Source: Cellulophaga sp. HaHaR_3_176
Lineage (GTDB): Bacteria; Bacteroidota; Bacteroidia; Flavobacteriales; Flavobacteriaceae
Assembly: GCF_019021925.1 (NCBI RefSeq)
Contig: NZ_CP058990.1
Coordinates: forward strand, 3,684,001-3,748,000
Direction: 5' to 3'
DNA: 64,000 bases
The first letter of the stretch is position 1; every line of letters starts with the position of its first letter. The notes under the pieces were generated by a model. The model was not told the DNA's origin and did no database searches. It worked only from the letters and a program-made list of their open reading frames with translations. Shown piece by piece: positions 44,387 to 53,949 of the stretch. The position numbers and the translations under genes are program-made.

Positions 44387-45025
44387 TTATCTTACCATTT
44401 TTAGCTCTGTTTTATCGGGTTTAAACATATTTGATATTGTCATAAATACCATAGCTAAGATAGCTGCGCCACCTAAAAGCCAACCTATATAGGCATATGA
44501 ACTATCAGATTTATTTGCATCTAATACCTTAAATTTATTGCCATCTGTGTAAAGATTTAATGTGTGTTCGTTATCGTTGTTTAGAACAAAACGGTCCTTA
44601 CTAAAATCTTTTTTTAAAAGTATAAGTGCGCTTTGGTTTTTATTGATGTCTTTAAATGCTGCATTTTTTACTTGTATAGATTGTATGTTTGAGGGAATAC
44701 CAAATACTTGAAAAACTACTTTTGTTTCATGACCTAGTTTTACGATACCAGAACCTAAAGTGATGTTATTTCCATTGATATTAATCGAAAAATTACTTTT
44801 AATGTGTTTCAATACCATTTCCTGAAATTCTTCAGGAGTTTTGTACGGTGTGTCAGTAAAATTGGTTTTTATTTCGTGTTGAAAAGCAGTCAAAGAAGAA
44901 CTAATTTGTAATATCCAGACATTATCTTCTTTTTCGACTAACATTGTAGTAGATACATCTGCTTGATGTGCTTTAGTTATCATTGTAAAGAATAATAGGC
45001 CAATAAATAGAATTTTTTTATACAT
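44387..45025 (-). CDS. extracytoplasmic protein with C-terminal anchor, unknown function
   Basis: A 212-residue protein: signal peptide (residues 1-19, ending TKAH), an external domain (about 20-175) and a C-terminal helix (about 178-197, YIGWLLGGAAILAMVFMTISNMF) with a short basic tail. The mature N-terminus HQADVSTTMLVEKEDNVWILQISS has the short-strand pattern of the DUF6702-like group, a weak resemblance only. It is the last gene of the EF-hand/CotH/YHYH operon, 11 bp after YHYH. Confidence 0.75.
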   Translation of the reverse strand: MYKKILFIGLLFFTMITKAHQADVSTTMLVEKEDNVWILQISSSLTAFQHEIKTNFTDTPYKTPEEFQEMVLKHIKSNFSININGNNITLGSGIVKLGHETKVVFQVFGIPSNIQSIQVKNAAFKDINKNQSALILLKKDFSKDRFVLNNDNEHTLNLYTDGNKFKVLDANKSDSSYAYIGWLLGGAAILAMVFMTISNMFKPDKTELKMVR

Positions 45026-45036
45026 AAGTTTTTTTC

Positions 45037-46026
45037 TTAATTAACGTATGCGCCATTAATACAGTTGATAAAGCTATTACTACCTGCTGCTGCTACATGG
45101 TAATGATATCCTCTAATATCATCAGTATGTCCTCTACAATCATCTAAGTCTTTAGGTTCTTCTCCATCAGCATCTAATCGCGCATAAATGCCAAAACCAT
45201 CCATAGCATAACCTATCATTGATGCGTGCTCATCTTCTTGTTCAAGTTGGGTAGATACACCTGTAGCTGCATGGTAATGATACCCGGCATTTAAATTAAT
45301 ATGCCCTCCTGCATCATCGAAAGGGGCTAGTGTGTAAGCACCTAAAATAGCGTCTGTTGGTGCTGGAGCATCAAAAACGATTCCATTAAACGCAATCCCT
45401 CTTTGTGATGGACCATTGCTACCTACTCCTGGAGGTCCGAAACCGCCAAATTCTGTAGAGGTAGATTGTTTAACAGGTGTGATTGGTATAAGGTAAGTCT
45501 GTGTAATATCATCTAAGTAAGAAGGTAGACACTCAACACAAAAATTTTCATATTCTTCTCCGACATTTGGGTCAGCAGCATTTGCGCAATCCTCTTGGGT
45601 ATCTGTAGTATAAATATCTCCATTTGTATCATACATTTGCCATTTGGTGTCGTTATAAAATGCTGCCATGTTTTCAATAAAAGCTCCATCTACATCATAT
45701 ACTTCTCCGTTTTCTAACCAAATTCCGCCTTTATCAGCTCCATCAGAAATATTATCAGGACACCATGGTCCCATTTCATGATCTGCAGGTGTGCTAGTTG
45801 CTACAATTTGGTAACAATCAGTAGTAGTGCCGTCAGATAAAGTACAAGGTACTGTTGTTACAGTAACAGAACCATCACTTGTTAAAAATAAAGATTGATC
45901 AACATTTACGACTGTAGAATCATCTACTGTAATGATTTGGTCAGTTTCAGAACTATCATTACTACAACTGATACAGGACATTAACATAAATGAACTATTC
46001 AGGAAAAAAAGAGATATGTGTTTCAT
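45037..46026 (-). CDS. YHYH-domain secreted protein
   Basis: A 329-residue protein with a lipoprotein-type signal (LMSCISCSNDSS, first Cys near residue 18). Two copies of the YHYH motif are present: AGYHYHAATGVS and RGYHYHVAAAGS, spaced about 65 residues apart, with MIGYAMDGFGIYARLDADG between them. Ten or more Cys suggest disulfides. YHYH proteins are found on bacterial surfaces and beside CotH-like genes, but their activity is unknown. The start codon is preceded directly by a run of 17 A's on the coding strand. Confidence 0.88.
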   Translation of the reverse strand: MKHISLFFLNSSFMLMSCISCSNDSSETDQIITVDDSTVVNVDQSLFLTSDGSVTVTTVPCTLSDGTTTDCYQIVATSTPADHEMGPWCPDNISDGADKGGIWLENGEVYDVDGAFIENMAAFYNDTKWQMYDTNGDIYTTDTQEDCANAADPNVGEEYENFCVECLPSYLDDITQTYLIPITPVKQSTSTEFGGFGPPGVGSNGPSQRGIAFNGIVFDAPAPTDAILGAYTLAPFDDAGGHINLNAGYHYHAATGVSTQLEQEDEHASMIGYAMDGFGIYARLDADGEEPKDLDDCRGHTDDIRGYHYHVAAAGSNSFINCINGAYVN

Positions 46027-46043
46027 TTTTTTTTTTTTTTTTT
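46027..46043 (-). repeat. A17 homopolymer directly before the YHYH start codon
   Basis: Seventeen A's on the coding strand run straight into the ATG. Long homopolymers are length-variable during replication, and the position is where ribosome binding occurs, so length changes could tune translation. Confidence 0.85.
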
Positions 46044-46061
46044 AATTTAGGGGTGATTAAT

Positions 46062-47529
46062 TTATTTACTTAAATAATTGGTTGCAGCTGTATTTCGTTG
46101 TGATACATGTGAATTTAATTCACTTATTGCAGCTTGAAAATCAGAACTATTGTTTAAAAAAGTATAACCAGGTAATTCGGTTGTAGCATAAGACTCTATT
46201 AAATTTGCGTAGTTACTGTAGGTTAATTGCATTGTATTTTCATTAAATGCATTATTTATAATATCATTTACATAGGAATCATATTTTGCTTTGTAAACCG
46301 AATCTTGATACAGGTAACCAATCAAAGGCCATTGTGCGTTATTTAAATCTGAAAAATCAAGAGCTAATGAACCATCCATGTTGCCTGTTTGTAGCGCTTC
46401 ATTATTATCCCAAGGGATCCAATTTAATTTACCGCTATCGAGATTGTTGTACAAAAAGTAGTTGTGAGTCATTCTACCATAGGTATCCCAATTTTGTATT
46501 ACTGTATTAACAGCCAAATAATTCAAAAAAACATCAGTATCAAAAACCGTTTCTAAATTTTCTCTCCAAGCTGCAGTATCAGTTGTTCTTGTTTCGTCGT
46601 GTAGTGCGGTAAATAAGTTCTGAATATCTGACCAATCAGCATCATCCTCATTTGTTTTCTTTACAAAAACATCTTTAGTAAAAGAGTTTTCAGCAAAAGT
46701 AGCTCCATCACCATCAGGCTTATATAGGTTTCCGTCATTATCAGAAAATTGAGTGTCAATTACGGTGTCATCAACTTCTTCAACAAGTGTGTAAAGTCCA
46801 AAATAAGTAGGTCCATCTCCATGGTCTACATAAACTGTATAAAAAGCAGTATGAGAACTAGCTAAGCCAGCTGTTCTGAAAATGTCTGCGGCAACCTTTT
46901 CGCGTAACATTGATTTATCATTGTAATTATTTTTTAAACTAAGTTTTTTAAATCCATAAAAACGTTGATTATCAATTTGCGGATATTCATCTTCAAATTC
47001 ATCAAAATCTAACTTGAACGACAATTTTAAATTACCAGCTTGCCAAGTAGATTGTAAACTAGAATTTCCTTTAAATCTAACGCCAACTTTGTACCATTCT
47101 TTATCATTATAGAACACCTCAGCAGGAACAAAAATTGGATCTTCTTCTGGGAAAAAACTTACACCTCCAGGGCCACCTTGCCCTGGACCATTATTAGAAC
47201 CTGAAGATCCAAATTCGCCATAAAGTTCTGTCATATCCGTCATCATACTCTCCCAACGATCTTCAGTAATTACGATATCTAATCGTTTTACTTCATTGTC
47301 TTCAAAAATTTCATCAAAATTTGGATCTGCACTTTTACTATGCGTTTCAGTTGTCCAATCTGTAGTTTCAAAATCAGAATCGTCAAAAGTTATAGTTTCA
47401 GTATCACTATCTATAATAGATTCTGCTTCTGTAATTTCATCATCGTTGCAAGCTATTAAAACGATTATTACTAGGTAAACAGAAATTTTTTTTATGATAG
47501 TAATTTTTTTTTTTGTCTTTAAGCTCCAT
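46062..47529 (-). CDS. CotH-kinase-like surface lipoprotein; start out of frame by 1 nt
   Basis: An in-frame stretch of about 480 codons from 47504 encodes a hydrophobic signal with lipobox (VIIVLIAC), an acidic linker, and then the CotH fold: VGVRFKGNSSLQSTWQAGNL, KKLSLKNNYNDKSMLREKVA and LNWIPWDNNEALQ. No ATG in this frame precedes the signal. ATG at 47529 (MELKDKKK) is one nucleotide out of frame because of an 11-A run at 47504-47514; ten A's would give MELKDKKKITIIKKISVYL, a good lipoprotein signal. CotH-like kinases transfer phosphate in spore coats in other phyla; activity here is unknown. The gene sits 25 bp after the EF-hand gene. Confidence 0.8.
47504..47514 (-). repeat. A11 tract that shifts the CotH reading frame
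   Basis: Eleven A's (coding strand) follow MELKD; another run of eight A's lies at 47486-47493. Loss of one A restores the frame. RNA-polymerase slippage on long A tracts is known in A+T-rich bacteria, so either the assembly has one A too many, or expression depends on slippage or phase variation. Confidence 0.8.
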
Positions 47530-47554
47530 TTTGAGATGATTTAATTAACGTTAA

Positions 47555-47854
47555 TTATTTGTTGCTAGGTCTTTCTTTTCTAGTTGGTTTAGGAGCATTT
47601 TCTACTTCTTCTCTAGATAAAAAACCATCTTCATCAGTATCAATTTTTGTAAAATCATTTTTCAAAGGCCCTTTAACTTCTTTTTGAGAAAGCAAACCGT
47701 CTTCGTCTTTATCCATTTGTTTGAAAATTTCATCTACAGTAGGTGGTTCCTGTCCTTGTCGTCCGCCTCCTGAATTTTGAGCGTTCATATTATAAGAAGT
47801 AAATATGCTTATTACGGCAACTAACATGGCTACTTTTAATCCTTTATTCTTCAT
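47555..47854 (-). CDS. small secreted EF-hand protein
   Basis: A 99-residue protein with a signal peptide (residues 1-25, ending NMNAQ) and two EF-hand loops, DKDEDGLLSQKE (about 51-62) and DTDEDGFLSREE (about 73-84), each with Asp at positions 1, 3 and 5 and Glu at 12. It should bind Ca2+. First gene of the minus-strand operon with CotH, YHYH and the anchored protein. Homologues often occur with CotH and YHYH genes in Bacteroidota; a calcium-dependent surface function is an inference. Confidence 0.85.
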   Translation of the reverse strand: MKNKGLKVAMLVAVISIFTSYNMNAQNSGGGRQGQEPPTVDEIFKQMDKDEDGLLSQKEVKGPLKNDFTKIDTDEDGFLSREEVENAPKPTRKERPSNK

Positions 47855-48496: not shown

Positions 48497-49135
48497 ATGA
48501 AATCTATTAAATTTTTACCTATTTTCCTTTTTTGTGCAGCAACACAAGTTGGTTTATCTCAAGATAACAACGATACAAATATAGCTACGCACCCTTTTAA
48601 TGTTTCTATACCAGAGGTTGCGCTTTTAGATGTACATGATGCAAATACAGGGTTAGAGGTTGCTGATATTACTTTTGATATGGCAACAGCAACAACTACA
48701 GGAACAAACTCAGAAGCAGGTTTGTACGATTTTGGAGCGTTAAATTATACTGATTTATGGATTAACTATACTAGTGTAACTGGTAGTGGTGGTTCTGGTT
48801 TTGATGTGACACGACAAATTGATGTTCAAATGGAGGCTGGTAGTACATTTCCTTTAGCTTTCGATTTAAGAATTACACCTGAAGCTCCAGTAGTCGTAGC
48901 TAATGGAGGTACGGTTGATTCTGCTGGTACGGTAACAGCAGGTGGTGTGGCATTAGGTGTTACAACAGCAATAGGTACTGATGCAACACTTGTAAATAGT
49001 ATTGAGAGTGTTTATACAGGAGATGAGACACAAGGTGTGAGATTGACATATACATTAGAGCAAAATGGAAACTTTGCAGATTACCAAGCAGGTTTGTATC
49101 AAGCAGTATTAAGATATACTTTATCTGATCTTTAA
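48497..49135 (+). CDS. secreted beta-rich subunit 1 (pilin-like)
   Basis: A 212-residue protein with a signal peptide (residues 1-21, GLSQD). The mature part starts with an alternating hydrophobic strand HPFNVSIPEVALLDV, then TDLWINYTS, a Gly/Thr-rich middle, and IESVYTGDETQGVRLTYTLE, ending YQAVLRYTLSDL. The same landmarks occur in the 52769 protein, so the two are paralogues. No Cys, no membrane helix after the signal. I infer a structural subunit of the fibre or coat assembled by the downstream usher-like protein. It is followed by an attenuator-like hairpin, as major pilin genes often are. No named family recognised. Confidence 0.75.
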   Translation: MKSIKFLPIFLFCAATQVGLSQDNNDTNIATHPFNVSIPEVALLDVHDANTGLEVADITFDMATATTTGTNSEAGLYDFGALNYTDLWINYTSVTGSGGSGFDVTRQIDVQMEAGSTFPLAFDLRITPEAPVVVANGGTVDSAGTVTAGGVALGVTTAIGTDATLVNSIESVYTGDETQGVRLTYTLEQNGNFADYQAGLYQAVLRYTLSDL

Positions 49136-49147
49136 GATAAGAATGGT

Positions 49148-49187
49148 TGAAGGTCTTAATTTTAATAGACCTTCAGCCTCTTTTTTT
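49148..49187 (+). terminator. attenuator or terminator after subunit 1
   Basis: 9-bp stem TGAAGGTCT (49148-49156, approximately) and AGACCTTCA (49167-49175), then GCCTC and a run of seven T's (49181-49187). It lies inside the cluster, so it probably lowers transcription of the downstream genes relative to subunit 1. Confidence 0.7.
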
Positions 49188-49222
49188 AACCTATATAACC
49201 ACACCATATAACCACCTTTATT

Positions 49223-50008
49223 ATGAAAACAGTATGCCTAATTATTTTCTCTCTTTTTTCAGTATACTTTTCATTGGCAAACGTTTCAGTAGTTAATGGT
49301 TTAACTCATGTTTATTCAGGAGCCTCAGGAGATCTTATTACAGGTGAGGTTATATTAATAAACTATTCTTCAGTAGAACAGCGTGTTAAATTTAAGATTG
49401 GTGAAGCGATTTATTCTTGTAATGAAAGTCGAATTTTTAGTTTTGATAAAACTCACGAGTATTCTTCATCAGCTTGGATTAATAGTAATGTTAACGAGCG
49501 AGTTTTGGCCCCTAAAGAACAATATGTATTAAAATTTACAATTCAAATTCCGAAAGACGAAGTTTTGAGAGGTTCATTTTGGTCAGTTCTTATGGTATCT
49601 GTAGATAACCCTATAAAAGAAGAAATGTTTAAGAATGAAATAGGGCTTAATACAAAAATTCAATATGCAGTTGGTTTAATTACAAATGTAAATACTGTTG
49701 ATGATGTTAATATAGATTTTAATGAAGTTAAATCTAACAAGGCATTAAATGATAGTAAAGATCTGAAAATTTCAATGAAGAATAATGGCTTATTTTCAGA
49801 GGCTGTTACATTAACATTGGAAGTTTATAACCAACAAGGAACAAAAATTAAAGAATATAAATCAAGAAGACTTTTAGTTTTTCCAAGTCTTTGTAGAGAT
49901 TATCAAATTAATATTTCCGATTTACCAAAAGGGGAATATGAGTGCGTTCTACTTGCAGATGCAAGAGAAAGCTTTATCGGTACAAACGTTAAGTTAAACA
50001 TCGATTAA
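49223..50008 (+). CDS. periplasmic chaperone-like protein
   Basis: A 261-residue protein with a signal peptide (residues 1-19, YFSLANV). Two Ig-like beta domains can be read: about 20-145, with GDLITGEVILINYSSVEQRVKFK, an AWINSNV segment, VLAPKEQYVLKFTIQIPKDEVLRGSFW, and about 150-261 ending with YECVLLADARESFIG. The order strand/loop/FTIxIP-x-x-x-GxFW resembles fimbrial chaperones and also WxL-interacting-type (DUF916) proteins. The subunit-binding Arg/Lys pair of PapD is not obvious. Position between a subunit and the usher-like gene is the chaperone slot of chaperone-usher clusters. Function inferred. Confidence 0.65.
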   Translation: MKTVCLIIFSLFSVYFSLANVSVVNGLTHVYSGASGDLITGEVILINYSSVEQRVKFKIGEAIYSCNESRIFSFDKTHEYSSSAWINSNVNERVLAPKEQYVLKFTIQIPKDEVLRGSFWSVLMVSVDNPIKEEMFKNEIGLNTKIQYAVGLITNVNTVDDVNIDFNEVKSNKALNDSKDLKISMKNNGLFSEAVTLTLEVYNQQGTKIKEYKSRRLLVFPSLCRDYQINISDLPKGEYECVLLADARESFIGTNVKLNID

Positions 50009-50045
50009 ATATTATTGGTACAAGATAACCATCAAGCCAATTCAA

Positions 50046-52766
50046 ATGTATAAAGGAATAATCCTATTTTTCATAATCTTTTTATCTAGCTTTTGCGTGT
50101 TAGCGCAGGTAGATATTCGCTTAAAAAGTAACGATGTTATTGCGAATATGACTCCTGAGTCTAAACATACAATAGTGTTTGAGGTACAAAACATGTCAGA
50201 AGACATGCAGTTTGTACGTACGATTTTAGATTTGGAAAACGATTGGGAAATTATTTCAGGTGGTTTTGTTGGTGATTTAAAGCCTTTAGAAAGAAAATTA
50301 GTATTTATAACAGTTTATGTTCCTGGTAAAACTAAACCAGGAGATAGGTTTGTTAAATTACATTTAATAACTTCTAAAAAAGCTATTTTGAAATCCTTAC
50401 CTATAAAATTAACAGTACCTGATAATCATCAGATAATTGTAAATAAACTGTCATCACCCGAATTAGTAATAGCAGGAGAAACTATTGAGACTGTATTTGA
50501 AATAAGAAATAGAGGGAATGTGACAGAAAAACTAGAGTTAGTTTCTGAAAATGATATTGTTGGTGGTTCTATTAGAGAAATAAAGCCAGACTCAACATTA
50601 GTTATTACTTTAATTAAAGAAACAGATGATAGAAATGAAGTAATTAGATCTGAAAATATATTTTTAAATGTAATAAGAAAAGAGCCTTCAAAACAAGTTA
50701 TAAGGGGGTATGCCGTAACTAAGGTTTACCCTACTAAAATGAAAAGGGAAGATGCTTATTTTAGATTGCCAGTAGAAGCTAGTTTTTATCTTAATAGCTT
50801 TAATTCACCTGATGTTAATTATTCTTCTTATTTATTAGAAGCTAAAGGAGAAGGTTTTTTAGATTTGAATAGCGAGCATTATTTTAATTTTTTAATTAGA
50901 ACTCCAAATCAAAGAACGGTAAATAGGTTTGGTATGAATGACCAATACACAATGTCTTACCGTTTTAAAGAAGATTTTAATGTAATAATTGGAGATTATA
51001 GTTATAGGGCAAATAGATTAGGTTTTGTTAGTAGATACGGTTTTGGTTTTAAATACGATAGTAAAATTAAAAACTGGAATCTTATTGCATTTTACTCTAA
51101 ACCAAGATTTGATAATCTGTATACAGAATCTATAGTAGGTGTAAAAGTTTTGAATAATATATCAGAATCTTTAAATGTAGGTATTTCGTTATCTCACTCT
51201 AAAGAAAATCAATTAGTACAAACGAATATAGGCAATGAGCTTATTAATCAAACAGGGCAAATAGCTGTTTTCGAAACTAATTATAAAACTAAAAATACAA
51301 CTATTAATCATGAGTCTTCAGTAAGTTTTACGGGTTTAAATAATGATCAGGCACATGATTTAAGGGTAAATCAAAAAATTCAGAACTTTATTTACACAGG
51401 TAATGTAACAGTAGTTGGTAAAAACTACTTTGGGGGTCTTAGTAATAGTTTTAGGTACTCAAATAACATTCGTTATTTTCTGAAAAAATGGGGGGTAAGC
51501 GCTGGGCAAGCATTATCTAAAGTTAATGAAAGATACAATCCTCAATTTTCTTTGCCAGAACCTTATTATGAAAACTATTTTATTTCTGCAAATTATAGAA
51601 TAAATCAAAAACATTATACGAATGTTAGGTTTAGCAATGTATTACGTGAAGATAAACAAGAAATAAAAAGTTATTTTTATAAAGAATATGGTTTAGATTA
51701 TTCATACAGATATTTGTATCAGGGGCTTAGTTTAAGTTTTACAGGTCGAGTAGCTAAAACAAAAAACATGTTGAGTTTAGATAATACATATAGAAATACG
51801 TATGGTAATAATTTAAGTGCGTCTTACCAAGTGTCTCCATTTATTGGTTTTAGAGGTAATATAAATCAAAATTATACGAATAGATATGGTGTTGATGGTA
51901 ATGCAACAAATTATTATAATTATGGACTTGGTTTTAATTTAAATCATAAAGGAAGGTTTCATTTATCAGTAACTTATAATAGTGGTTTTAGCCCAGAAGA
52001 TGATTATCTGCAAAGAGATTTTATTAATTTAAATTTTGGAGCACAGATAGATAAATCTCATAAAATTTCGGCAAGACTTAATTATTACGAAAATCCTTTT
52101 TCAAGAAATAATAAAGAACTTTTTAGTTTTTTAAAATATACATATTCATTTGGTGCGCCAATAAAAAGAATTTACTGGCAAGGTTCAGTTAATGGGTCAG
52201 TTTTTACGAATGATGGAGAGGTTAATGTGAGTAAAATTAAAATAATAGCTTCTGGCAAAAATGTTTATTCTGATGATTTTGGAAATTTTGAATTAAAGAA
52301 TTTATCTGAAGGTAAAAATTATGTAATGATAGATGACGCTACTCTGCCAATGGGTATAGTAACTGTTCAGAAAATGCCTTTAGAAGTTGATATAGTAAAA
52401 AATGAGCAAGCCTCGTTGAATATAGAGTTGGTAAGGTCTGGTACAATTAAAGGAGAATTGAAAATATTTAATTCAAATGATGAAGTTGATAATGTTGGTT
52501 TAGAAAGTCATTTAAAAATAGAAGGAAAAGATAATACGTATTATACAGAAAGTGATAGAAATGGACTTTTTACTCTTAAATCAATTGTGCCTGGAGATTA
52601 TGTAATATCTGTAATGCGACTTAAAAAAGGTAGTGATCTGAAAACAGTAAATAAAATTCAGAACATTAAAGTAAACAAAGGTGAAGTGCATTCTGTTGAG
52701 GTTTTCTTGAAAAGAAAAGAAAGAACAATTAAGTTTAAATCTTCAAACTTTAACGTAAAGCTATAA
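50046..52766 (+). CDS. usher-like outer-membrane barrel
   Basis: A 906-residue protein: signal peptide (residues 1-21), two Ig-like domains (about 22-128 and 132-235), a long region of alternating aromatic beta strands (about 240-720) and two C-terminal carboxypeptidase-regulatory or SpaA-like domains (about 730-795 and 800-900). The early barrel contains VIIGDYSYRANRLGFVSRYG, which resembles the GD-x-F-x-S-x-x-x-G motif of fimbrial ushers. Size, two N-terminal and two C-terminal domains flanking a barrel, and adjacency to chaperone-like and subunit genes fit a usher. A TonB plug is absent. I do not recognise a named family and cannot exclude a different export barrel. Subunit 2 starts 2 bp after its stop. 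Confidence 0.68.
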   Translation: MYKGIILFFIIFLSSFCVLAQVDIRLKSNDVIANMTPESKHTIVFEVQNMSEDMQFVRTILDLENDWEIISGGFVGDLKPLERKLVFITVYVPGKTKPGDRFVKLHLITSKKAILKSLPIKLTVPDNHQIIVNKLSSPELVIAGETIETVFEIRNRGNVTEKLELVSENDIVGGSIREIKPDSTLVITLIKETDDRNEVIRSENIFLNVIRKEPSKQVIRGYAVTKVYPTKMKREDAYFRLPVEASFYLNSFNSPDVNYSSYLLEAKGEGFLDLNSEHYFNFLIRTPNQRTVNRFGMNDQYTMSYRFKEDFNVIIGDYSYRANRLGFVSRYGFGFKYDSKIKNWNLIAFYSKPRFDNLYTESIVGVKVLNNISESLNVGISLSHSKENQLVQTNIGNELINQTGQIAVFETNYKTKNTTINHESSVSFTGLNNDQAHDLRVNQKIQNFIYTGNVTVVGKNYFGGLSNSFRYSNNIRYFLKKWGVSAGQALSKVNERYNPQFSLPEPYYENYFISANYRINQKHYTNVRFSNVLREDKQEIKSYFYKEYGLDYSYRYLYQGLSLSFTGRVAKTKNMLSLDNTYRNTYGNNLSASYQVSPFIGFRGNINQNYTNRYGVDGNATNYYNYGLGFNLNHKGRFHLSVTYNSGFSPEDDYLQRDFINLNFGAQIDKSHKISARLNYYENPFSRNNKELFSFLKYTYSFGAPIKRIYWQGSVNGSVFTNDGEVNVSKIKIIASGKNVYSDDFGNFELKNLSEGKNYVMIDDATLPMGIVTVQKMPLEVDIVKNEQASLNIELVRSGTIKGELKIFNSNDEVDNVGLESHLKIEGKDNTYYTESDRNGLFTLKSIVPGDYVISVMRLKKGSDLKTVNKIQNIKVNKGEVHSVEVFLKRKERTIKFKSSNFNVKL

Positions 52767-52768
52767 AC

Positions 52769-53362
52769 ATGAAAAAAGTAATGTTCTTATTAGTTATAGT
52801 TTTTAGTTCAATGTATTCTTTTGGTCAAGAAACACTAGATGCTAGTGACCCGAATTCATTTATTTTTGGAGGGGATCAAGGTTTTCATTTTTTAACAATG
52901 AATTTGTTAGATATTAATTTGATTGATGTAGAACCAGAATTTAATAATGCGGTTTCATTTGCAATAGACCCTTCTACATTAGAGGCTGGTGAGCCTATTT
53001 TTTCTGGTGCAGGAGGCGCTATAAATGAAGATTTATGGCTTAATATAACGTCTAGAACAAACGGTGTGGCTACATATAATGCTTTCGTATCTTCAAATCA
53101 ACCAGTGCCAGCTGGCTTTGAATTAAAAGTTGAAATTTTAAATGCTCAAAGTGTTGGAGGAACTGGAATTACAGGAAATGCAGTATTAGGCGAAATTATA
53201 ATTTCAGATACGCCTGCTGTAATTATTACAGGTATAGAAAAAGGATATACTGATGATGGTGTTAATAAAGGCTTTCAGTTAAGGTATGTAATAAATAACT
53301 CAGGAGGAGGGAGTTTGCCTGTTGGGTTTGAGATTGTTTATGAATTAATAGTACAGAATTAA
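52769..53362 (+). CDS. secreted beta-rich subunit 2 (pilin-like)
   Basis: A 197-residue protein with a signal peptide (residues 1-19, YSFGQE). It parallels subunit 1: an N-terminal strand HFLTMNLLDINLIDV, then NEDLWLNITS, and IEKGYTDDGVNKGFQLRYVI, ending IVYELIVQN. No Cys. The N-terminal alternating strand in both proteins could act as a donor strand in subunit polymerisation, which is an inference. It is coupled to the usher-like gene (2-bp gap) and is 11 bp before the next subunit gene. Confidence 0.75.
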   Translation: MKKVMFLLVIVFSSMYSFGQETLDASDPNSFIFGGDQGFHFLTMNLLDINLIDVEPEFNNAVSFAIDPSTLEAGEPIFSGAGGAINEDLWLNITSRTNGVATYNAFVSSNQPVPAGFELKVEILNAQSVGGTGITGNAVLGEIIISDTPAVIITGIEKGYTDDGVNKGFQLRYVINNSGGGSLPVGFEIVYELIVQN

Positions 53363-53373
53363 AAATATTTATA

Positions 53374-53949
53374 ATGAAAAAGTATATCGCATATAGTATT
53401 CTTTTTTTTACAGCAAATATTTGCTTTGGTCAGTTGTTGCCAGGTACTTTATACGGTACGGCAGGGCCAACATATTCACAATCTCTTTCTGATGTAGTTA
53501 AAGAAGCAGGAGAAGATGATGGTAGTATAGCGTACGAAAATGGAGCAAGTGCTGTGCAAATAAGCTTTTATTTAGACCCAAGTAATTTACGAAGCTCTTC
53601 TCAAAATTGTGCTAATAATGTATATAAGTATAAAGTTTTCATGCATACTCAAAATGCACCAGAAGGTTTAGTTTTAGAGGCAAGAACATTTTCAAATGCA
53701 GGAAACAGGTTTCCGGCAAGTGCAAACTACGATCTTTTTCCAGCAAATGGTCCAAGAGATTTATATCCAGAAAACGGAGGTAGTTATATCGCTATTCCTA
53801 ATGAGGATTCTGCAGCAATAAAAGTTTTTGAATTTACAGGCTGTAGAACTAATATTCCTATACAGTTTAGGGTTGCAGCAAGTGCTTTGAGTGATTCTGG
53901 TACTAGTAATACAGAAGTTTATTATACTGTTGTTGGAAGTTTAAATTAA
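53374..53949 (+). CDS. secreted beta-rich subunit 3 (possible tip protein)
   Basis: A 191-residue protein with a signal peptide (residues 1-19, ICFGQL). The mature part ends FRVAASALSDSGTSNTEVYYTVVGSLN and has two Cys (about 72 and 161) that could pair, unlike subunits 1 and 2. Central segments YKYKVFMHTQNAPEGLVLEAR and YPENGGSYIAIPNED are beta-type. It is a divergent subunit, perhaps the tip or base of the structure; homology to the other two is weak. Last gene of the cluster; a hairpin follows at 53954-53975. Confidence 0.65.
   Translation: MKKYIAYSILFFTANICFGQLLPGTLYGTAGPTYSQSLSDVVKEAGEDDGSIAYENGASAVQISFYLDPSNLRSSSQNCANNVYKYKVFMHTQNAPEGLVLEARTFSNAGNRFPASANYDLFPANGPRDLYPENGGSYIAIPNEDSAAIKVFEFTGCRTNIPIQFRVAASALSDSGTSNTEVYYTVVGSLN

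Follow-up and report, generated by a model that had tools for sequence, protein, structure and literature searches.

What do five adjacent genes of Cellulophaga sp. HaHaR_3_176, none of them named by a known protein family, assemble? They lie at positions 48,497–53,949 of the window, by which we mean the whole 64,000-nucleotide stretch of contig NZ_CP058990.1 that was analyzed. An initial annotation made from the letters alone placed five co-directional genes there, and five plus-strand open reading frames (ORFs) do occupy these positions, in the order subunit A, a terminator-like hairpin, chaperone, usher-like barrel, subunit B and subunit C (Table 1). It also gave all five proteins signal peptides; signal-peptide-like starts are present in each, judged by eye. 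Neither Pfam nor NCBIfam returned a match over cut-off naming any of the five, and PDB sequence searches gave no naming match for them (the best for the 906-residue protein, E 0.99, is unconvincing). We propose, with a probability of about three in four, that these genes form a self-contained chaperone-usher-like system for assembling surface fibres, with a WxLIP-like chaperone. The proposal draws on computed results, namely which genes are present and how they are conserved, the predicted folds, the relationships of the chaperone, a tail pattern and the terminator-like hairpin; from these we infer donor-strand complementation and exchange, fibres that pass through the barrel, an excess of subunit A and the roles of subunits B and C. 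A literature search at title and abstract level, with preprints and most subscription journals outside its coverage, found no description of such a system or its fibres.

The gene set is conserved as a unit. A barrel profile of 31 sequences matched 39 of 299 genomes of the same family at E ≤ 0.001, 29 of them below 30 bits and nearly always at C-terminal positions; true barrel relatives, at 94 bits or more, occur in ten of the 299, including the genome studied here, where the barrel protein is single copy. In all ten loci the barrel gene is preceded by the chaperone gene and followed by B- and C-like genes (in L053 the C match is weak, 1e-3); an A-like gene comes immediately before the chaperone in eight and lies elsewhere in the locus in L050 and L052. 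Found in ten of 299 genomes, the module is thus accessory but travels together; a barrel gene conserved without subunit and chaperone genes, which the initial annotation had named as contrary evidence, was not encountered. One relative (L045, genome G113) has one TAG and one TAA in its barrel frame, for which reason this copy looks interrupted, and a 414-residue ORF lies there between the chaperone and an 835-residue barrel piece. Kinase and response-regulator-like genes, named by eye, adjoin the locus in several relatives.

Chaperone and barrel also keep company across the phylum. A broad chaperone profile of 25 sequences matched 126 of 395 phylum genomes and 55 of 171 genera, and 40 of these loci were picked by hand across many families; L142 was dropped, having no chaperone ORF under 380 residues. 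In 30 of the remaining 39 loci a barrel-profile protein (E < 1e-3) is encoded within 4.5 kb and on the chaperone's strand, in 22 of them within 60 bases of the chaperone and in 28 downstream; the match spans 85% or more of one profile in 16 of the 30 and 30% or less in eight. Three further loci were recognized by profile-profile comparison (L155 96.1, L159 95.1, L167 94.3; all HH-suite figures come from pairwise comparisons, uncalibrated on a database); among the remaining 34 large decoys the highest score was 48.8, at C-terminal positions only. In the last six, the open frame runs to a contig edge (L133), an ORF of 918–995 residues lies on the opposite strand (L148, L152, L153), or no large ORF is present (L137, L166). 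L137 (genome G681) has a chaperone-family gene without a barrel or subunit gene in the stretch examined, possibly an orphan. Beyond the phylum, three Deinococcus plasmid stretches hold, arranged much as here, subunit-like and chaperone-like genes and a large gene; the 839-residue protein of D. deserti aligns with the window-led barrel profile over 745 columns (98.5), the other two large proteins over 144 (93.2) and 159 columns (89.5) only.

The module resembles the chaperone-usher pathway (classical FimC/FimD, archaic Csu, alternative ECP and CFA/I) in combining subunits, a chaperone with two putative immunoglobulin-like (Ig) domains and a large barrel, and the resemblance extends to the modelled architecture of the 906-residue protein. 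Its 26 consecutive strands are flanked by two beta domains on the N-terminal side and two on the C-terminal side, and Foldseek places FimD/PapC ushers at ranks 1–9. The Ig-like N-terminal domains and long barrel region read earlier from the letters can be seen in this predicted structure. The two C-terminal domains, described as SpaA/carboxypeptidase-regulatory-like, appear as modelled beta domains; the CarboxypepD_reg and SpaA matches there are below the Pfam cut-offs in the window protein but recur at E ≤ 0.1 in 30 and 27 of 31 barrel homologues, respectively. A motif had been misread: it is GD-x2-Y-x5-GF rather than GD-x-Y-x6-GF, and at residues 316–327, where it separates strands 5 and 6, it is some 80 residues inside the barrel instead of at its start. 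Homologues identified by name include proteins of Pseudozobellia (54% identity) and Maribacter (59%). Barrel homologues (L002 and others) often have a Cys near the end of the signal peptide, the lipobox being judged by eye, and often a long linker or additional N-terminal Ig repeats.

The same protein departs from known ushers. FimD/PapC ushers have a plug domain inserted in the barrel, whereas the window protein has two N-terminal Ig domains, 26 strands and, in the model, no globular domain between residues 238 and 708. PF00577, the usher family, was not found in the genome studied here at E ≤ 0.001 and is absent from the Pfam families listed for the window barrel protein and its 31 homologues; the window-led barrel profile scored at most 2.2 against eight K-12 ushers. 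VIA-align rows for this protein cover residues 237–704 only, and families absent there may still match. That it instead serves substrate uptake or electron transfer, as a TonB-dependent or MtrB-like barrel with periplasmic partners, seems to us very improbable: the model has no plug-like alpha/beta domain, its N-terminal part being made of beta domains, the Pfam scan of the window protein matched no plug family, none is among the 25 listed of the 35 Pfam families matched by the homologues, and no cytochrome gene was seen by eye in the loci examined. A TonB plug or a poreless fold, either of which had been named as speaking against an usher, was not encountered in this large, plugless barrel.

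A link in sequence to ushers emerged from the phylum. PF00577, run on all 395 genomes (cut-off 27.1 bits), matched four, all below cut-off (24.3, 23.7, 22.1 and 18.7 bits), and all in a single family (f84). The match always falls in the large gene immediately next to one that encodes a member of the window's chaperone family, and hmmscan reproduces it in two of the four proteins. The type II barrel profile recognizes these four large genes at 3.5e-78 to 7.1e-43. As an unbiased test, this survey gives, at the level of sequence, an independent link to chaperone-usher systems. Seven f84-type ushers were combined in a profile, which aligns with the joint profile of the K-12 ushers over 208 columns (84.4) and reaches at most 10.7 against single K-12 ushers; it scores 99.9 over 765 columns against the window-led barrel profile, with L081 in both, and 37.4 against the window-type profile alone. 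Since the window type joins type II (100 over 814 columns), type II joins f84 (100) and f84 joins the FimD family, the chain from window to FimD is transitive. A FimD profile found no match in the hand-picked phylum loci at E ≤ 0.05. Three of the four f84-type usher-like proteins (L171, L172, L174) carry C-terminal SPOR domains (PF05036), which would suggest peptidoglycan binding in this branch.

The chaperone connects the module with a second group, the WxL/WxLIP clusters of Gram-positive bacteria. As a control for generic Ig similarity, a profile of the chaperone family (92 sequences) was compared with single sequences, namely three Enterococcus WxLIPs, nine fimbrial chaperones of E. coli K-12 and, as decoys, 145 secreted-looking ORFs from the same loci. 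All three WxLIPs aligned over both domains (97.8, 96.5 and 96.4 over 229–250 columns), and the best decoy reached 21.0. Five of the nine K-12 chaperones scored above every decoy (EcpB 89.3 over 199 columns, YadV 74.8, YcbF 65.2, SfmC 57.4, YehC 36.8), the other four being ElfD (12.2), YraI (11.0), YbgP (2.5) and FimC (0.6). A K-12 PapD-family profile matched four of the 39 wide-sample chaperones, best L140 at 9e-9, and the window-type chaperone profile alone gave 95.9 against WxLIP (203 columns) and 0.7 against PapD. A likeness (95.6) also exists between the type II chaperone profile and the usher-like protein's own N-terminal Ig domains. These sequence comparisons are fairly read as showing a WxLIP-like family whose link to PapD-type chaperones is partial and weaker. 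The initial annotation offered two options, either a chaperone-usher system of a distant type or a surface module that resembles WxL and has a barrel, and elements of both are backed by the chaperone. Retention of the PapD anchor, which we take to be Arg8/Lys112, is not claimed because the window chaperone has His and Gly there by eye; L140 has basic residues at both positions in the PapD-profile alignment.

Pfam domains trace the same family unevenly. In an alignment of 33 chaperones, 16 match PF11797, WxLIP_HBD (DUF3324; best 9.8e-7), and two match PF06030, WxLIP_PGBD (DUF916), at E ≤ 0.1; the window chaperone matches no WxLIP domain at E ≤ 1. Of 22 relatives outside this alignment, scanned with cut-offs of 27.3 (PGBD) and 28.9 (HBD), six exceed one cut-off and none exceeds both: PGBD in L056 (38.6), L057 (29.8), L076 (32.2) and L079 (28.4), HBD in L077 (36.2) and L129 (30.8). 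L077 has the window's gene order and also PGBD below cut-off (22.5), with the domains in the right order. NCBIfam gave sub-threshold matches only on nine proteins from related loci. The 33 sequences also match Por_Secre_tail (14) and CHU_C (8) at E ≤ 0.1; such weak matches to type IX secretion system sorting domains, and those to generic Ig models, were set aside as lying below cut-off in the one fully listed table, and fn3_5 is above cut-off in the chaperone relatives L076, L079 and L167. WxLIP_PGBD also matches in Thermotoga maritima, one of the control genomes; this organism has an outer sheath.

A WxLIP consists of two Ig-like domains and a membrane helix and is presented as a lasting surface partner of WxL; in AlphaFold2 complexes a WxLIP strand fits a gap in WxL, completing its sandwich (PMC10599100). 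The published model would amount to donor-strand chaperoning, i.e., the filling of a missing strand, and the main text of that paper never uses chaperone, donor, Gram-negative or Bacteroid. The lasting partnership, together with WxLIP being the strongest profile match of the chaperone family, would suit a WxL-like surface coat in which the WxLIP-like protein stays bound to subunits A, B and C and the barrel anchors or exports them without polymerising. We consider such a coat unlikely: unlike a WxLIP, the window chaperone stops directly after its second domain in the alignment, with no C-terminal transmembrane helix by eye, and stands beside a barrel gene; subunit A has a free alternating tail; and no relation of the subunits to two WxL proteins is visible in sequence.

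Assembly into fibres, the reading that we prefer, depends on the subunits. The initial annotation saw landmarks shared by the first and fourth proteins, and the two are homologous: a profile of A finds B at 4e-11, with a profile-profile probability of 100. C is linked weakly to B (74.9); the profile-profile figures are for sequences that still had their signal peptides. Subunit A scored at most 1.4 with any of 12 K-12 pilins or the two WxL proteins; a WxL relation of the subunits gains no support in sequence, nor does Pfam WxL match any of 36 subunit A homologues. The subunit A model (predicted local distance difference test score 86.2, predicted template-modelling score 0.77) finds as its best PDB matches CfaB (E 0.014, probability 0.95) and PapE (0.033), and 12 of its top 13 Foldseek rows are chaperone-usher fimbrial chains, counting a CS20 row that we assume to be one; none falls below E 0.001. 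VIA-align gave TLP-1a at 7.1, with CfaE, CfaB, FimH and PapA among rows at 5.6–6.5 and none at 8 or more. The modelled likeness of subunit A to chaperone-usher pilins is therefore weak.

Subunit A also has a patterned N-terminus. A polar linker at the mature N-terminus is followed by L-x-V-x-V, outside any strand of the model; across up to 36 subunit A sequences the hydrophobic fraction is 1.00, 0.97 and 1.00 at columns 34, 36 and 38 and 0.28, 0.06, 0.14 and 0.03 at columns 33, 35, 37 and 39. Alternating hydrophobic residues have been called characteristic of N-terminal donor strands (PMC4654587). The barrel might also export A, B and C singly, as soluble or surface proteins that the chaperone merely keeps export-ready, and this would agree with a barrel model lacking the usher-type plug and with the fibres being a prediction. 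The homology of A and B, the donor-strand-like tail in A and the multiple subunit genes of several related loci, as in fibres, make it quite improbable. Runs of subunit genes of about 180 residues stand beside one chaperone in L076, L078, L079 and L082, perhaps as alternative subunits.

Two of ten subunits tested from related loci belong to DUF4402 (PF14352; L167 at 82.8 and L149 at 40.6 bits, cut-off 25.2), whereas the window's own subunits have no match to it at E ≤ 1. A type V (FimA/Mfa1-like) pilus plus a barrel, which we rate as highly improbable, shares the phylum and finds some favour in Mfa2, matched by six of the 33 aligned chaperones at E ≤ 0.1, by the window chaperone at 15.2 bits, short of the cut-off of 21.2, and by the D. 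deserti relative, itself without a WxLIP match, just above it (21.7). Type V pilins are lipoproteins. Subunits A, B and C have no lipobox by eye, the window subunits have no FimA/Mfa1 family match at E ≤ 1, and the module, unlike type V pili, has a dedicated barrel gene.

The gap between subunit A and the chaperone offers a further regularity. The stretch 49,133–49,195 folds with z −6.16, and a hairpin with a T run follows the subunit A gene in 11 of 12 loci tested, four of the 11 with one mismatch; stems differ in sequence between loci. This purpose-written scan used single-base shuffles, of which 0 or 1 of 200 were as good. In the twelfth locus (L051) the gap is only ten bases, and L053 was left out because its genes overlap. 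The element may be a device for an excess of subunit A: a terminator would stop part of the transcripts before the chaperone gene, and A would for that reason be made in excess.

We hypothesize that all five proteins are exported via their signal peptides. A two-domain periplasmic chaperone, a soluble relative of WxLIP and of PapD/EcpB-type chaperones, would bind the subunits and fill a missing strand in their incomplete beta-sandwich, and the usher-like barrel would receive these complexes. The N-terminal tail of an incoming subunit (residues 34–38 in A) would then displace the chaperone strand in its neighbour as the growing fibre exits through the barrel, with A as major subunit and B and C as minor ones (adaptor, tip or base). 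We do not file the module under the PF00577 pathway or the WxL clusters because a defining feature of each was looked for and found absent; this lowers the claim of membership, not that of chaperone-usher-like working.

The odds seem to us even that the idea can be carried further, to an additional chaperone-usher class across Bacteroidota and in Deinococcus whose chaperone is a WxLIP and whose subunits include DUF4402 proteins. Gram-positive WxLIP/WxL clusters would then form the monoderm branch, with donor-strand chemistry in common: WxLIP would be a chaperone of subunits that is tethered to the membrane, and WxL would be such a subunit, of a pilin-like kind. If so, about a third of the sampled phylum genomes hold a component of a further assembly route, DUF4402 (subunit) and DUF916/DUF3324 (chaperone) acquire proposed jobs, and a bridging chaperone family ties WxL clusters to chaperone-usher pili, two bacterial surface systems commonly regarded as unrelated. 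It would follow that WxLIP acts by donor-strand complementation, consistent with the published AlphaFold2 WxLIP–WxL complex (PMC10599100).

Table 1 Features of the five-gene module in the window
Feature	Position	Strand	Basis
Subunit A, putative major subunit, 212 residues	48497..49135	+	ORF listing, homologues, model, weak pilin-like fold matches
Candidate donor strand of subunit A, residues 34–38 (F-N-V-S-I here; L-x-V-x-V in family)	48596..48610	+	Column hydrophobicity
Intrinsic terminator-like hairpin, 12 pairs (one G-U), and T run, in the gap between subunit A and chaperone	49145..49187	+	Folding z, recurrence
WxLIP/PapD-like chaperone, 261 residues, without C-terminal membrane helix by eye	49223..50008	+	Profile comparisons
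Usher-like outer-membrane protein, 906 residues	50046..52766	+	Homologues, model, Foldseek, profile comparisons
N-terminal Ig-like domains of usher-like protein, residues 24–228	50115..50729	+	Model
26-strand barrel region of usher-like protein, residues 238–708	50757..52169	+	Model, fold matches
C-terminal CarboxypepD_reg/SpaA-like domains of usher-like protein, residues 713–890	52182..52715	+	Pfam in homologues, model
Subunit B, 197 residues, subunit A homologue	52769..53362	+	Profile comparisons
Subunit C, 191 residues, putative minor subunit	53374..53949	+	ORF listing, neighbourhoods; weak link to subunit B

Adjoining the module on the minus strand, genes for DUF6702, YHYH, CotH and EF-hand proteins are grouped at 44,387–47,854. 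The CotH kinase gene among them (46,062–47,561; PF08757, 236.9 bits) has a frame that stays open upstream of its first ATG/GTG/TTG at 47,246 and contains a lipoprotein-signal-like stretch; because this upstream frame lacks a standard start codon, the start of the gene appears to be unusual or altered.

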